A stretch of DNA of 33,737 bases from an uncultured Pelagibacteraceae bacterium (lineage in GTDB: Bacteria > Pseudomonadota > Alphaproteobacteria > Pelagibacterales > Pelagibacteraceae), in the NCBI GenBank assembly GCA_902523095.1, contig CABYYE010000009.1:1-33737 (forward strand), read 5' to 3'. The notes below the pieces were generated by a model. The model worked only from the letters and a program-made list of their open reading frames with translations, had not been told where the DNA came from and ran no database searches. The position numbers were made by a program, and so were the translations under genes. Positions 17,286-23,647 of the stretch are shown piece by piece (the first letter of the stretch is position 1; each line of letters starts with the position of its first letter).

Positions 17286-18161
17286 TCAACCATTAAGTTT
17301 TTCTAAAAGCGTTTTACCAATATCAGCTGGGGATTTAGAGATAGTTATCCCAGCAGATCTCATCTTTTCTATTTTATCCAGGGCACCACCTTTTCCTCCT
17401 GATATAATTGCTCCAGCGTGACCCATTCTTTTTCCAGGTGGAGCTGTTAACCCTGCAATAAATCCCACCATTGGCTTTTTAATTTTTTCTTTTTTGAGAA
17501 ATTCTGATGCTTCTTCCTCTGCTGAACCTCCTATTTCACCTATCATAACGATCGATTCAGTATTATCATCTTTTAAAAAAAGTTCTAGGCAGTCTATAAA
17601 GTTGGTTCCGTTTATTGGATCTCCACCGATTCCTATACAAGTAGACTGACCCATTCCATTGGCTGTAGTTTGAGCTACAGCTTCGTAAGTTAAAGTTCCA
17701 GATCTTGAAACAATACCAACTGTTCCTTTTTTGTGAATGTTTCCTGGCATAATTCCAATTTTACACTCATCGGGTGTTATAATTCCCGGGCAATTAGGGC
17801 CTATCAATCTTGAATTATTTTTTTTTAGTTGTTCTTTAACTTTTAACATGTCAAGTATTGGTATCCCTTCTGTAATACAAACTATTAATTCTATTTTAGC
17901 ATTTATGGCTTCGAGGATCGCGCTTGCAGCAAATTTTGGAGGGACATATATCATTGATGCGGTTGCATCTGTCTTTTTTTTTGCTTCCTCAACTGTATCA
18001 TAAACTGGAAGTCCTAAATGTTTTGTTCCTCCTTTTTTAGGAGTTACGCCACCAACAAGTTTAGTCCCGTATTTAATTGCTTGCTCCGAGTGAAAAGTTC
18101 CATGAGTTCCAGTAAAACCTTGACATAAAACTTTTGTATTTTTGTTTACTAGAATTGACAT
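17286..18161 (-). CDS. sucD: Succinyl-CoA synthetase subunit alpha
   Basis: With SucC, cleaves succinyl-CoA to succinate with formation of ATP or GTP, the only substrate-level phosphorylation of the TCA cycle. The CoA-binding Rossmann domain begins with [16 protein letters not shown] (about 14-29), GPNCPGII follows, and the phosphorylated histidine is His248 in GHAGAII. The length of 291 residues is normal. Its ATG shares one base with the sucC stop codon (TAATG), so equal subunit production by coupled translation is likely. Confidence 0.98.
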
Positions 18162-19321
18162 TATTCAATTACACTCACAATTTTTCTTGCTGCATCATTT
18201 AAATCAGATGCTGATAATATTTTTAAATTTGATTTATCTAAAATTTCTTTTCCTTTTTCAAAATTAGTACCTGCTAGTCTAACTACTAATGGGACTGATA
18301 AATTAATTTCTTTAGCCGCATCTACTACTCCTTGAGCAAGAACATCACATCTCATTATGCCTCCAAAAATATTTATTAATATTCCTTTCACATTTTTATC
18401 TGATAAAATAAGTTTAAACGCTGCAGAAACTTTTTCTTTTGATGCGCCACCACCAACATCTAAAAAATTTGCTGGTTCTTTTCCATGTAATTTTATTATA
18501 TCCATTGTAGCCATAGCCAAACCTGCACCATTAACCATGCAACCAATTGAGCCATTAAGTTTTATATAAGCTAAATCATATTTACTTGCTTCTATCTCAG
18601 AAGGGTTCTCTTCGTTTAAATCTCTTAGTTTGGCAATTTCAGATCTTCTAAATATTGCATTATCATCAAAATTCATTTTTGCATCTAAACAGAGTAATTG
18701 TTTATTTTTCGTGATTATTAAAGGATTAATTTCGATTAAACTTGCGTCCTTCTCAATTAAAATTTTATAAAGAGCATTAATTAATTTATAAGCTTCTTTT
18801 TTTTGTTCATCGTTAAAATTAAAAGGTAAAATAATTTTTTCTATTTCGTTATCATCAATACTTTTTTTAAAATTAATTTTAACAGTATTTATTTTACTTG
18901 GTTGTTCAGAAGCAACTTTTTCTATGTCCATACCTCCTGCGGTACTACTAATAAATGCAATTTTAGAACTCTCTCTATCAATTAAACAAGATAAATAAAA
19001 TTCTTTTAAAATTTCTGAAGCCTCCTCAATATAAAGTCTTTTAACTTCTTTGCCTTCTGGTCCAGTCTGATGAGTGATTAATACTTTTCCCATCATGTTT
19101 TTTGCTTCAGTTTCAAGTTCCGTTATATTTTTTACTAAAACGACGCCTCCTGCCTTACCTCTACCGCCAGCGTGAATTTGAGCTTTGACAACAAAAGATT
19201 TACTTTCTAATCGGGATATTTTTTCCTTTATTTCATCGATTGATTTGATAACAACTCCTTTAGAAACTGGAGCGCCGTATTCTTTAAGTATTTCTTTAGC
19301 TTGATGTTCGTGAATATTCAT
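18161..19321 (-). CDS. sucC: Succinyl-CoA synthetase subunit beta
   Basis: Nucleotide-binding subunit of succinyl-CoA synthetase. It starts with the family signature [16 protein letters not shown]. An ATP-grasp fold covers about residues 1-235 ([17 protein letters not shown], and EINPLIIT with its metal-binding Glu and Asn), and the C-terminal ligase domain contains the [14 protein letters not shown] and [16 protein letters not shown] segments. The length of 386 residues is normal. In this genome sucC does not follow mdh directly: its start faces a divergent glycosyltransferase gene across only 42 bases, so it must either have its own promoter there or be reached by antisense read-through from mdh. 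Confidence 0.98.
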
Positions 19322-19360
19322 TTTAGTCTGCTATTACTACCATAAAATTTATATTAATCC

Positions 19361-19388
19361 ATTATGAAAACAAAAATAATAGTTTTAA
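19361..19388 (-). promoter_or_regulatory. Weak candidate promoter for sucC
   Basis: Reading toward sucC, a -10-like CATAAT (19361-19366, 5 of 6 to consensus) is preceded by TTAAAA (19383-19388, 4 of 6) at a 16-base spacing. The boxes overlap the start codon and first codons of the divergent glycosyltransferase. A transcript would start near 19354, about 33 bases before the sucC start. It is reported because sucC needs a promoter here if the insert has separated it from mdh. A+T richness makes chance matches likely. Confidence 0.2.
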
Positions 19389-20239
19389 CGCCTGTTTATA
19401 ATGATTGGAAAAATTTAATCAAACTTTTAGCTAAAATTAACAATATATTTAAAATAAAAATAAAAACTAAATTTGACTTAGTCGTCATCAATGATTGCTC
19501 TACAGAAAGTTATAATTTTAAGAAATTAAGATTAAATAGGGTTAACAAATTAACGCTCATTAATTTAGATACAAATGTTGGTAGTCAAAGTGCTTTAGCT
19601 ATAGGTATAAAGTATATTTCAAAAAAATATAAAGAAAAATATAATATCGTTATTATTGACTCTGATGGCCAAGACAATCCTCAGGGTATCTTAAAAATGT
19701 ATAACTTAATCAAAAAAAATTCTAAAATTTCTATTGTTGTAAATAGAGGACAAAGAAAAGAGCCGCTGTGGTTTAGATTTTTTTATAGTTTCTATAGTGC
19801 AATTTTATTTATGTTTGTAGGGAAAAAAATTAGATTTGGGAATTTCAGTCTTATAAACTCCGCTCATGTTAAAAATATTAGTCAGGATAAAGATTTATGG
19901 AGTGCTTTTCCACCAACTGTTTCTAATAATACTGATAATATTTCTTATATAACTTTGGATAGAGAAAAAAGATTTTCAGGAAAATCTAAAATGAATTTTT
20001 TTGGATTGATTTTCCATGCTTTAAGAGTGTTTTCAGTTTTCAGATATAGAATTATTTTTTCTTCAATGATTTATTTATTTTTAAATTATGTTATTTTTTT
20101 CAAATCTAATAATTTAATAATATTTTTAATATTTTCTCTAATCCTGCTAACATTTAACTTGAGTAATCTTGTTGTGTATATCATTAATCGACTCAACTTT
20201 GTTATTAATTCAAAAAAAATCAGAGTAAAAATTTATTAA
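19364..20239 (+). CDS. Family 2 glycosyltransferase, GtrB/DPM1-like polyprenyl-phosphate sugar synthase
   Basis: Probably moves a sugar from a nucleotide sugar to polyprenyl phosphate on the cytoplasmic face of the inner membrane. GT-A fold features are visible: TPVYNDWKN (9-17), the VVINDCST strand (40-47), and the metal-binding DSDGQ with Asp99 and Asp101. Further on come R-x-GNFSLI (158-164), which replaces the DFRL motif of GtrB relatives, and RFSGKSKM (203-210), close to their R-x-GxSKY motif. Two hydrophobic segments at about 229-246 and 251-273 are the expected membrane anchor. The 291-residue length fits. It is transcribed away from sucC across 42 bases, and its last four bases overlap the 3' end of the convergent membrane protein gene. 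The sugar is unknown. There is no small GtrA-type flippase next to it. Confidence 0.82.
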   Translation: MKTKIIVLTPVYNDWKNLIKLLAKINNIFKIKIKTKFDLVVINDCSTESYNFKKLRLNRVNKLTLINLDTNVGSQSALAIGIKYISKKYKEKYNIVIIDSDGQDNPQGILKMYNLIKKNSKISIVVNRGQRKEPLWFRFFYSFYSAILFMFVGKKIRFGNFSLINSAHVKNISQDKDLWSAFPPTVSNNTDNISYITLDREKRFSGKSKMNFFGLIFHALRVFSVFRYRIIFSSMIYLFLNYVIFFKSNNLIIFLIFSLILLTFNLSNLVVYIINRLNFVINSKKIRVKIY

Positions 20240-21843
20240 TCACACGTATTTAATTTAATAGAATATATAATTTTATTATAATTTTCTTTTTTGAAACAAT
20301 TTGTTTTTAAAAGATTTTCAAAATTAATGAAATTAAATTCTCCCGATCTACTTTCTACTACATAAATTATTTGTATGTTTTTTTCAGATATTTTTTTTAA
20401 AAACCTCTTATTATAATCATCTAAATATTTATGATTTTTGGAAGTAGGGAAAGTGTTATTTGGATAATACCATCTATTTGGTATGTTTAAATTTGCTCCA
20501 ATAAATGATGAAAAAAACTGATAATGAGTAATCAACATTTTATTTAGTTTGTTGCTGTCAATTATGTCGATCGACTCTTTGATCAATTCTAATTCTTTAT
20601 TTGGGTCTTTATTATAGTTTGGAGTGATCCATTTTAATTTGTTAAATCTATTATCTAAAATAGCCGCATCGATGCTTTTAGATAAGTCTACATTTTGAAG
20701 ATCTATAAACTTTCTTTTTTCGTTATAAACTAGATGATATTTGAACGTCGAAAAAATTACAACACCGATTAAAAAAAGTTTGAACATATTGCTTTTCTTA
20801 AATTTTACTAATTGATCTAATTGAAGAATAAAAAAACCACATAAAATAGGAATTAATGAAAAAATAAAAGTTTGATTAGCTGTTATAAGCTGGTGAAAAA
20901 TAAATCCAAGAGTGCAGAATATTATAAAAATATTTATCAAAATATTTTGATCAAATTTATAATTAGAAAAATTTTTTTTAATATAAAAAATTAACAAAAA
21001 TAAATTTAGGAACAAAAAAAGAAAGATAAATTTAAAATGGCCTAAAGTACCTCTTAAGGTCAATTTATTTGCTAATTTAGCTGCCTCAAAGGCTTTATCA
21101 TCACTTGTTATGCGTCCAAGACCAACATCGAGAGGAAATAAGATTATTTGTGTATAAAAGTCTTTGAAGGTTACCTTAGTAATTATGAAATATAAAAAAA
21201 GTAAAATTAAACAACTTACGGATCCAGTCAAGAATGTCTTTAAATATTTTTTTTTATTAAATAAGACAAAATATATAATTATAAAAATGATAAGAAATAA
21301 ATTTATTATACCTGATGGTAGTTGCATGCACAAAAATGAAAAAAGCATTGTTAATGGTAAGAAAAACCAAAATATTTTTTGTTCTTTAAAAACTGCTAGA
21401 TAAAAAATTAGGATGGAAATAGTGCTTATTATAAATGAGTGTTGATAGGGAAAAGGTGTTCCAATTATTGGATAGCATAGTATCGCTACAGAAATAGATA
21501 GAATAAAATTGTAAAATAAATTTTTATTAAATTGATTCAAAAAATAGAAAAAAAATAAGCTTATTATAACGTTAAATAAGGATGCATGAAAAACATAAGA
21601 TCTCCAGCTGAGACCAAATATTTTGAAAAATAATGCCTGTATATAATCAATTAAAATGCCTGAAATTATCCAAAAATCTTTTATCGGATGTTGACCTTCT
21701 GTAATATAGTACCCAGTATCAAAGAAACTAAATGTATCAATTGGATATAAACCTTTATTTGCATAATAATAATTTATATAAAAAGCAAATAAAATTATAA
21801 AAAATTTGAAAACGAATTTTATTGGAGTATCTTTAATAATCAT
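20236..21843 (-). CDS. Multi-spanning membrane protein, possible GT-C type glycosyltransferase
   Basis: A 535-residue protein with about ten hydrophobic segments between residues 9 and 370, followed by a soluble region of about 165 residues that would face the periplasm. No function is assigned with certainty. The first outer loop (about 31-60) carries acidic residues Asp36, Asp42 and Asp56 in a context (FDTGYYITEGQHPIKDFW) that resembles the first loop of GT-C enzymes, where an Asp is catalytic and polyprenyl-phosphate sugars are donors. Pairing with a GT2 polyprenyl-phosphate sugar synthase next door supports that idea. Alternatives are an O-antigen ligase or polymerase-like protein, or an uncharacterised lineage-specific membrane protein. 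It is divergent from the methyltransferase gene across 41 bases. The sequence is extremely A+T-rich and rich in Phe, Ile, Lys and Asn. Confidence 0.7.
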   Translation of the reverse strand: MIIKDTPIKFVFKFFIILFAFYINYYYANKGLYPIDTFSFFDTGYYITEGQHPIKDFWIISGILIDYIQALFFKIFGLSWRSYVFHASLFNVIISLFFFYFLNQFNKNLFYNFILSISVAILCYPIIGTPFPYQHSFIISTISILIFYLAVFKEQKIFWFFLPLTMLFSFLCMQLPSGIINLFLIIFIIIYFVLFNKKKYLKTFLTGSVSCLILLFLYFIITKVTFKDFYTQIILFPLDVGLGRITSDDKAFEAAKLANKLTLRGTLGHFKFIFLFLFLNLFLLIFYIKKNFSNYKFDQNILINIFIIFCTLGFIFHQLITANQTFIFSLIPILCGFFILQLDQLVKFKKSNMFKLFLIGVVIFSTFKYHLVYNEKRKFIDLQNVDLSKSIDAAILDNRFNKLKWITPNYNKDPNKELELIKESIDIIDSNKLNKMLITHYQFFSSFIGANLNIPNRWYYPNNTFPTSKNHKYLDDYNKRFLKKISEKNIQIIYVVESRSGEFNFINFENLLKTNCFKKENYNKIIYSIKLNTCD

Positions 21844-21884
21844 CTAGACTTTATTATCATGAATTTACTATTATCAAAATCACA
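21844..21884. promoter_or_regulatory. 41-base divergent promoter region
   Basis: This gap must carry the start signals for the membrane protein gene (leftward) and the methyltransferase gene (rightward), unless they lie inside the genes. Rightward, TAGACT (21845-21850) and TATTAT (21869-21874) are 18 bases apart and match 4 of 6 and 5 of 6 consensus positions; the transcript would start almost at the ATG and be nearly leaderless. The octamer TATTATCA occurs twice, at 21852-21859 and 21869-21876. No clear leftward promoter was found. In this base composition all of these may be chance. Confidence 0.22.
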
Positions 21885-22685
21885 ATGTTGAAAATTAAAG
21901 ACAAAATTAGATTCAAACACTCTGAAAATCTCATGAAACAAGAGGGTGATGTTCTTCGTTCAATTGATGATATTCAAAAAAATAAAAATTTATATGTATT
22001 ATTAAAAGAAAGATTTGACTGGATGAATAATTTTATAAAAGAAGACTCAAAAGGTATAGAAGTAGGTGCTGCTGCTGGTTTTTCAAAAAAATTTATCAAA
22101 TCAAAAAATTTCAAAATTAGTGATTTTTCAAATCATCCACATCTAGATTATAAAAATATTGACGCACAAAACACAGGATTTAAGGAGGAAGAATTTGAAT
22201 TTGTTATTTCATCTAATATGATCCATCATCTTCCTTATCCATTAAAGTTTTTTAATGAAATGCATAGAATATTAAAAAAAGGAGGCAAATTAATCATTTT
22301 TGATGCTCACTGCTCAATTTTATTGCAACTAGTTTTAATTATAATGAGACACGAAGGTTTTGATTTTACTAAAAATGTTTGGGATCAAAAAAATCCCTCT
22401 ACCGAAATTGATGATTTGTGGTCTGGTAATAGCGCTATACCATATCTGATATTTAACGAAAAAAAAAAATTTGAAGAAAAATTGGGCGAAAAATTTAATT
22501 TAGAGTATATAAAATTATGCGAGTGTTTAATTTTTTTAAATTCTGGAGGTGTAACATCAAAAACGTTTTACATACCATTAAATTTTTTCTTTTTAAAACT
22601 TGTAAAGTATTTTGATAAGTTTTTAACATATTTTTTTCCAAAAATCTTTGCTTTAGGTTATAAAATTGTTTTAGAAAAAAAATAA
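21885..22685 (+). CDS. Class I SAM-dependent methyltransferase
   Basis: Predicted to transfer a methyl group from S-adenosylmethionine; the substrate is unknown. Motif I is GIEVGAAAG (57-65), the acidic strand end is near Asp80 (KISDFSN), IDAQNTGF (92-99) fits the region that touches the adenine, and FVISSNMIHHLPYP (106-119) with EMHRILKKGGKLIIFD (125-140) matches the Methyltransf_11 pattern. A C-terminal hydrophobic and basic segment (about 223-266) could associate with the membrane. The 266-residue length fits the family. Its place beside a glycosyltransferase and a membrane protein suggests methylation of a sugar or lipid-linked glycan, but this is inference from context. Its stop lies two bases from the convergent mdh stop, and a run of 11 A lies at 22459-22469. 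Confidence 0.82.
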   Translation: MLKIKDKIRFKHSENLMKQEGDVLRSIDDIQKNKNLYVLLKERFDWMNNFIKEDSKGIEVGAAAGFSKKFIKSKNFKISDFSNHPHLDYKNIDAQNTGFKEEEFEFVISSNMIHHLPYPLKFFNEMHRILKKGGKLIIFDAHCSILLQLVLIIMRHEGFDFTKNVWDQKNPSTEIDDLWSGNSAIPYLIFNEKKKFEEKLGEKFNLEYIKLCECLIFLNSGGVTSKTFYIPLNFFFLKLVKYFDKFLTYFFPKIFALGYKIVLEKK

Positions 22686-22687
22686 TA

Positions 22688-23647
22688 CTAGCCAAGAGCA
22701 GGGTCTATTTTTTTGGCAGATTCAAAAAGTAATTTTACAGACTCAACAGATTTTACAAAATTCTTTTTTTCTCCATTCTCTAAATTTAGTTCTATGATCT
22801 TTTCTACCCCTTCTTTACCTATTATAACTGGAACTCCAGCGTATATGGAATTAAATCCATACTCACCATTAAGGTATGCTGCGCAAGGTAATTGTTTCTT
22901 CAAATCTTTAAGATAACTTTCAGCCATTTCTACCCCGGACGCAGCAGGGGCATAAAATGCTGACCCTTTTTCCAAATATTTAACTATTTCAGCACCACCT
23001 TTTTTAGTGCGATTAACTATTTCTTCTAATCTCTCTTTAGAAATCCTACCTTTTTTTACAAGTTCTTCAATTTTGACACCATCAACTTCTGTAGAACCTA
23101 ACATTGCAACCATACTGTCACCATGACCTCCTAACACAAAAGACTTTATTTTCTGAACCGGCACATTAAGTTCTTGAGATAAAAAGTAAATAAATCTTGA
23201 TGAGTCTAAAATACCTGCCATACCTACTATTTTATTTTTTGGAAGGTTTGAGTATTTTTGCAATGCCATCACTATTACATCTAATGGATTAGTAATACAA
23301 ATTACGAAAGCATTTGGTGAAGTACTTTTAATACCTTCAGCTACTTGCTTAATAATCTTTAAATTAATTCCAAGTAGATCGTCTCTTGTCATGCCTGGTT
23401 TTCTTGGCACTCCTGCCGTTACAATTATTACATCGGACTCTTTAGTGTCCTCATATTTATTAGTTCCAGACAATCTAATATTAAATTTATCTATTGGAGA
23501 TGATTGTGCAATATCAAGGGCTTTTCCTTTTGCTATACCTGCAGCAACATCAAATAATACTACGTCTCCCAAACCTTTTAACGCAATTAAGTGAGCTAGA
23601 GTTCCACCAATTTGTCCTGCTCCAATTAATGTAATCTTTTTATTCAT
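22688..23647 (-). CDS. mdh: Malate dehydrogenase, LDH-like type
   Basis: NAD-dependent oxidation of malate to oxaloacetate, the last TCA step. The Rossmann nucleotide site is [12 protein letters not shown] (8-19), Arg82 in [10 protein letters not shown] marks malate rather than lactate specificity, Arg151 is in the LDSSRF segment, and catalytic His175 is in GGHGDSM. The length of 319 residues is that of the LDH-like MDH found throughout alphaproteobacteria. It starts three bases after the mmsA stop, so it belongs to the sdh-mmsA-mdh run. Its 3' end faces the methyltransferase gene, not sucC as is usual. Confidence 0.98.

Follow-up and report, generated by a model that had tools for sequence, protein, structure and literature searches.

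A variable gene cassette with a predicted GT-C-type glycosyltransferase at the mdh-sucC junction of one SAR11 clade

One clade of SAR11 bacteria probably carries a modular, replaceable cassette for surface-glycan decoration, which is placed exactly between the stop codon of the malate dehydrogenase gene, mdh, and the start codon of sucC, the gene for the succinyl-CoA ligase beta subunit. The junction was studied starting from a contig of 33,737 nucleotides from an uncultured Pelagibacteraceae bacterium (assembly GCA_902523095.1, contig CABYYE010000009.1; this whole stretch is referred to below as the window). A first-pass annotation had described a block at positions 19322-22687 of the window as a surface-glycan module that entered a core energy operon. 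All three genes of the block were confirmed there, between sucC and mdh, both of which are on the minus strand. They are a plus-strand glycosyltransferase gene (GT2), a minus-strand gene for a membrane protein that we call MEMB and a plus-strand methyltransferase gene (MT).

Results

The positions of mdh and sucC were compared over 247 genomes of the SAR11 family, with one genome per species. The window's genus, g1, also includes G185, which has been assigned to SAR11 subclade IIa.B (PMC7542561); all of g1 may correspond to IIa.B. Genera g1, g2 and g3 together provide 73 complete junctions, i.e., junctions with mdh and sucC on the same contig. Sixty-nine of these are occupied, by inserts of ca. 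1.4-7.7 kb, and four (in G245, G187, G193 and G081) are empty; there are 34 gene arrangements. The empty sites are seamless, the stop codon of mdh and the start codon of sucC being separated by 3, 8, 0 and 22 bp, respectively. Outside g1-g3, listed coordinates permitted a check of the mdh-sucC distance in 33 genomes, and in every one of them the two genes abut, with matches 6-16 bp apart. The tree of mdh and sucC, which has many open forks, unites g1, g2, g3 and g8 in one starred group (98*); g8 was examined in one genome, whose junction is empty. A single origin followed by losses and an origin after g8 had branched off are both compatible with this distribution.

Relatives of the whole block occupy the same place in g1 and g2, and the nearest pairs of genomes (G233/G207 and G118/G129) share the same junction architecture. 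As expected for a replacement island, one site with core flanks holds, in related genomes, genes that are functionally alike yet differ or have diverged strongly. The insertion hotspot suggested by the first-pass annotation is borne out by this comparison: the junction varies among species and has clean empty sites in relatives, and what was found was not the same three genes in all subclades with a vertical phylogeny. No report of an mdh-sucC variable site was found in the open-access literature.

MEMB is the constant resident. All 69 occupied junctions contain it, in every case on the strand of mdh and sucC, and in nine of them it is the only insert gene. Conversely, the partner genes GT2 (21/21), MT (24/24) and the cargo families c5 (23/23) and c6 (17 junctions) are always antisense to mdh and sucC. 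With MEMB in 69 of the 73 complete junctions of g1-g3, the earlier picture of a single entry of a module into the operon had to be abandoned.

The window is contig C9 (33.7 kb) of an 886-kb, 36-contig genome that is 75% complete, a setting that would favor an artefact of assembly or binning at the junction. Since independent assemblies of single amplified genomes and metagenome-assembled genomes (AG-461-E04, TMED128, SAG-MED41, AG-904-O07, AG-917-N08 and AG-426-O05) carry the same block in the same arrangement, an assembly join, which the first-pass annotation had named as a possible objection, is excluded, and the artefact explanation is already refuted. The genome scan used a 14-row MEMB alignment of closer sequences, the 44-row one being too diverse for this purpose.

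The lower G+C content of the block was confirmed by measurement (22.8-24.7% in the three genes vs. 33.9% in mdh and 29.3% in sucC), while its value as a signal of import was lost: because G+C at third codon positions in the block (0.18-0.19) matches that of the neighbors (0.145-0.20), the low overall value is attributable to amino-acid composition and carries no foreign signature. A foreign origin deduced from base composition was accordingly rejected. The G+C content of the inserts is uniform over the 69 junctions (0.230, standard deviation 0.012). The MEMB profile matched two of the 189 other alphaproteobacterial genomes sampled, one clearly (a 539-aa frame in G333, E 8e-40) and one marginally, and no donor was therefore found. 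That this lineage recently acquired a foreign glycan island by horizontal transfer could still be argued from the lower overall G+C, the glycan-type genes, the absence of the block from several relatives and the clear MEMB relative in the distant genome G333. We nevertheless regard such an import as very improbable, given the neighbor-like third positions, the uniform inserts, the rarity of MEMB in other Alphaproteobacteria and the relatives of the block at the same site in g1 and g2. Moreover, the window contains no tRNA, and no mobility gene was present among the identified cargo families (some cargo genes were not searched). The region does contain repeats, which are short, imperfect and AT-rich.

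The MEMB gene of the window (20236-21843, minus strand) codes for 535 amino acids. An AlphaFold2 model of the protein (pLDDT, the predicted local distance difference test score, 86.7; pTM, the predicted template modeling score, 0.90) has a predicted GT-C fold over its full length. When the model was searched with Foldseek (best E 2.1e-6), every match at E ≤ 1e-3 was an OST/PglB or a DPY19 protein, with ArnT close behind. VIA-align gave Z values of 15-17 (maximum 16.8) to PMT, DPY19, OST and ArnT, where values above ca. 13 are notable for a mostly helical protein, and the listed rows were consistently GT-C proteins. Among 44 MEMB homologues searched at E ≤ 1, 23 matched PMT_2 (best 1.5e-11), the window copy not being one of them. 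Acidic residues near the N terminus, e.g., D36, are invariant. MEMB is thus predicted, from the modeled fold and its homologues, to be a glycosyltransferase of the GT-C type.

The acceptor is less easily read from these matches. MEMB may glycosylate periplasmic proteins, in the way of OST, PMT or DPY19, instead of lipopolysaccharide (LPS); what Foldseek matched at E ≤ 1e-3 are enzymes that glycosylate proteins, and VIA-align ranks PMT and DPY19 first. This is a live rival that we hold to be unlikely: ArnT stands alongside (Z 15.5) with small differences in Z, the GT-C fold leaves the acceptor undecided, and a GtrB-like partner together with swappable modifying cargo looks like O-antigen modification loci.

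Between junctions, MEMB proteins are 28-98% identical. In close pairs the ratio of nonsynonymous to synonymous substitutions (dN/dS, NG86) is ca. 0.10-0.15, mostly above that of mdh and sucC yet purifying; positive selection on MEMB was thus not seen in these pairs.

GT2 (19364-20239, plus strand, 291 aa) matches Glycos_transf_2 (PF00535, 4.7e-13), PHROG 841 'GtrB-like O-antigen conversion' (2e-16) and, over residues 5-266, PDB entry 5eke (sll0501, a solved GtrB-type protein; 1.9e-13). By sequence similarity it is predicted to be a GtrB/DPM-like polyprenyl-phosphate glycosyltransferase, and it is found in 21 of the 69 occupied junctions. MT (21885-22685, plus strand, 266 aa; Methyltransf_11, 7.2e-13) is a class I S-adenosylmethionine-dependent methyltransferase with relatives in 24 junctions. 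A domain scan of ten other cargo representatives, which cover part of the cargo, retrieved methyltransferases including FkbM, a DegT aminotransferase, GNAT, a glucose/sorbosone dehydrogenase (GSDH) and FAD_binding_4, families that are often sugar-modifying; c5, c6 and c10 gave weak or no domain matches. c5 is a second PMT_2-like membrane protein of ca. 550 aa (PMT_2-like in 19 of 20 members), which aligns weakly with MEMB (hhalign probability 71). The glycan-type character that the first-pass annotation assigned to the cargo is upheld by the GtrB-like GT2, the GT-C fold prediction for MEMB and the sugar-modifying families. It was also observed that c5 is often paired with c6 (88 aa, no family assigned), as in locus L045 (1264-2913) and 16 further loci. 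A defense system was considered and discarded, PADLOC having returned just weak generic methyltransferase matches.

MEMB identity does not rise with the identity of mdh and sucC (Spearman -0.20): genome pairs with 85-90% housekeeping identity have a median MEMB identity of 0.35, and pairs with 70-75% one of 0.36. G185 and G169, for instance, share 89% identity in mdh and sucC and 37% in MEMB. The MEMB tree mixes genera: g1-g3 require 12 changes where the minimum is two, and starred branches impose eight changes each on g1 and g2 taken singly. The partner genes track the MEMB allele more than the species. Presence of MT requires six changes on the MEMB tree vs. 15 on the mdh and sucC tree (18.6 for shuffled labels); the corresponding numbers are 9 vs. 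14 for GT2, 13 vs. 15 for c5, 8 vs. 12 for c7, 4 vs. 7 for c8, 2 vs. 6 for c9 and 2 vs. 3 for both c21 and c23, with c22 equal on the two trees. For MT, GT2, c5, c7, c8, c9 and c21, none of 300 label shuffles reached the MEMB-tree value. Mosaic junctions also exist: L158 (G159) combines a GT2 and spacer of the window type with another MT/MEMB type, and L135 has MEMB and GT2 of the window type with another MT type at a new position. In the close relatives G142 and G136, MT is present in one genome only, and MEMB has a dS of 1.31 vs. 0.67 and 0.72 in the flanks.

These data bear on a different history, in which the ancestor of the clade acquired MEMB a single time and the gene settled into the operon, took on a housekeeping role in the envelope and diverged fast, its partners coming and going by chance and no alleles being exchanged. 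Such a history would agree with the confinement of all occupied genomes to one starred group (98*), with the codirectional MEMB that often lies a few bases from sucC, with purifying selection and a MEMB dS close to that of mdh and sucC in most close pairs, and with flanks that have no identity gradient. It does not predict MEMB identity unrelated to housekeeping identity, allele classes that cross genera, partners that follow the allele, the wholesale replacement between G185 and G169, a MEMB dS in G142/G136 that is roughly double the flank values, or the existence of empty sites. We consider the combined scenario unlikely.

The right-hand flank, in mdh-to-sucC order, is sucC (18161-19321, minus strand; Pfam ATP-grasp_2 2.7e-70, Ligase_CoA 7.1e-34) and the left-hand flank is mdh (22688-23647, minus strand; Pfam Ldh_1_N 2.6e-41, Ldh_1_C 1.4e-33). 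The gene preceding sucC is codirectional with it in 36 of the 69 occupied junctions, with a median gap of 3 bp and some overlaps, and divergent in the other 33, including the window, with gaps of 36-129 bp (median 60). The divergent spacer between GT2 and sucC (19322-19363; 42 bp in the window, 38-41 bp in relatives) has a mean column identity of 91% and 26 invariant columns over the window and seven relatives, in which it spans 38-42 bp, even though all genes compared between the window and G098, its closest relative, have a dS above 1.2. We infer that it is a conserved promoter region. The MEMB-MT spacer (21844-21884), likewise divergent and a putative promoter region, is 41 bp in the window and in L132, L134, L136, L137 and L138, with a shared core, e.g., TTCATGATA. 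A scan for the sigma-70 consensus found fewer promoter-like sites than in shuffled sequences and so gave no support to the promoter reading. Where an antisense partner lies next to sucC, the conserved divergent spacer would supply the promoter for sucC; where MEMB lies next to sucC, it would behave as an operon member. The first-pass proposal that the block uncouples mdh from sucC is therefore plausible for about half of the junctions, i.e., the 33 divergent ones including the window, and does not extend to the 36 codirectional ones.

Cassettes of the same MEMB-MT-GT2 type were also observed in the gap between rpoD and mlaC (L119 4837-7300, L120-L124 and L127). Most genomes of g1 and some of g2 have a gap of 111-170 bp here (151 bp and empty in the window's genome, G000:C5:54181-54331); several genomes of g2 and two of g1 have ca. 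0.9-4 kb, and in g3 and g8 the distance is 3-17 kb. A third home, with MEMB and a diverged MT upstream of a nuoA-like gene, occurs in two g1 genomes (L125 4482-6835 and L126 4317-6670). One MEMB copy at the mdh-sucC site has a single internal stop (G107:C1:11393-12586), and interrupted copies with several stops each were seen outside this site for MEMB (G061:C2:111018-112445) and GT2 (G033:C4:114-947). The start of a viral contig (L131 2-592) holds a partial MEMB-like open reading frame with 31% identity, after which come phage genes of the MazG-like and DNA-methyltransferase kinds; it is either a chimera or phage cargo.

Discussion

The SAR11 O-chain cluster (OBC/HVR2) lies between the 16S-23S and 5S rRNA genes and has been described as a replacement flexible genomic island of 10-90 kb and 8-101 genes (PMC11898729, PMC7318151); these SAR11 genomes were stated to contain a single O-chain gene cluster (PMC11898729). 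Like that cluster, and in the same bacterial order, the mdh-sucC cassette has variable glycan genes between fixed core flanks. It differs in its size of ca. 1.4-7.7 kb, in its site inside the mdh-sucCD operon and in having one constant core gene, MEMB, tightly packed against a tricarboxylic acid (TCA) cycle gene. The gtrABC seroconversion operons of Salmonella, Shigella and their phages, in which a variable transferase sets the surface sugar (PMC3688519), resemble the cassette in having a GtrB-like donor synthase and, if MEMB is the predicted GT-C enzyme, a highly diverse glycosyltransferase. The cassette, however, has alternating strands, a chromosomal core-gene site and extra modifying enzymes. 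GtrA is absent from the block of the window, and PF04138 was found in one of 60 family genomes (the control was positive). Because the block has no GtrA and its genes do not form one operon, we did not file it as a gtrABC operon.

We propose that the GtrB-like GT2 would load a sugar onto polyprenyl phosphate in the cytoplasm and that MT would modify the sugar, a step for which other alleles would use aminotransferase, oxidoreductase or acetyltransferase-like enzymes. After flipping, the sugar would be passed on in the periplasm by MEMB, as a GT-C enzyme, to LPS/O-chain or some other acceptor in the envelope. A given MEMB allele and its partner enzymes would tend to move together, and swapping the gene set would change the surface glycotype, in the manner of gtr operons, the DNA between the conserved core flanks being replaced over evolutionary time.

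Several points weigh against this proposal. It draws on sequence comparison and a predicted fold, and an envelope acceptor is a conjecture. In contrast to the known PMT_2/ArnT/DPY19/OST proteins, which MEMB resembles in its full-length predicted fold, in the PMT_2 matches of its homologues and in the invariant D36, the MEMB profile matched no PDB sequence at E ≤ 1 and the window copy matched no Pfam or NCBIfam model, its GT-C assignment being made from the predicted fold and the homologues. GT2 is missing from 48 of the 69 occupied junctions, for which the donor must be assumed to be made elsewhere in the genome. The ends of the flanks (mdh 3' and sucC 5') have no identity gradient among allele-sharing pairs, so that alleles may, but need not, have been exchanged through recombination in the flanks. 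Finally, the MEMB and the mdh and sucC trees are of the quick type with many open forks, and with one genome per species, replacement inside a population was not seen.

In a wider view, tentative when taken as a whole, a GT-C gene in the TCA operon would form the fixed center of a second surface-type locus with multiple alleles. These alleles and their matched partners would have persisted and passed between genera, and promoters of the locus would by now drive sucCDAB in some species, which would link surface type to the expression of central metabolism. If the cassette has the proposed function, streamlined SAR11 genomes would possess a second variable surface locus besides the O-antigen island, and surface-diversity cargo inside a core energy operon may alter the expression of that operon. 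One diagnostic gene between two easily recognized core genes would then be a simple marker of surface type for single-cell and long-read data, and would offer a direct route to test whether many surface types persist in a streamlined genome owing to pressure from pelagiphages or grazers.

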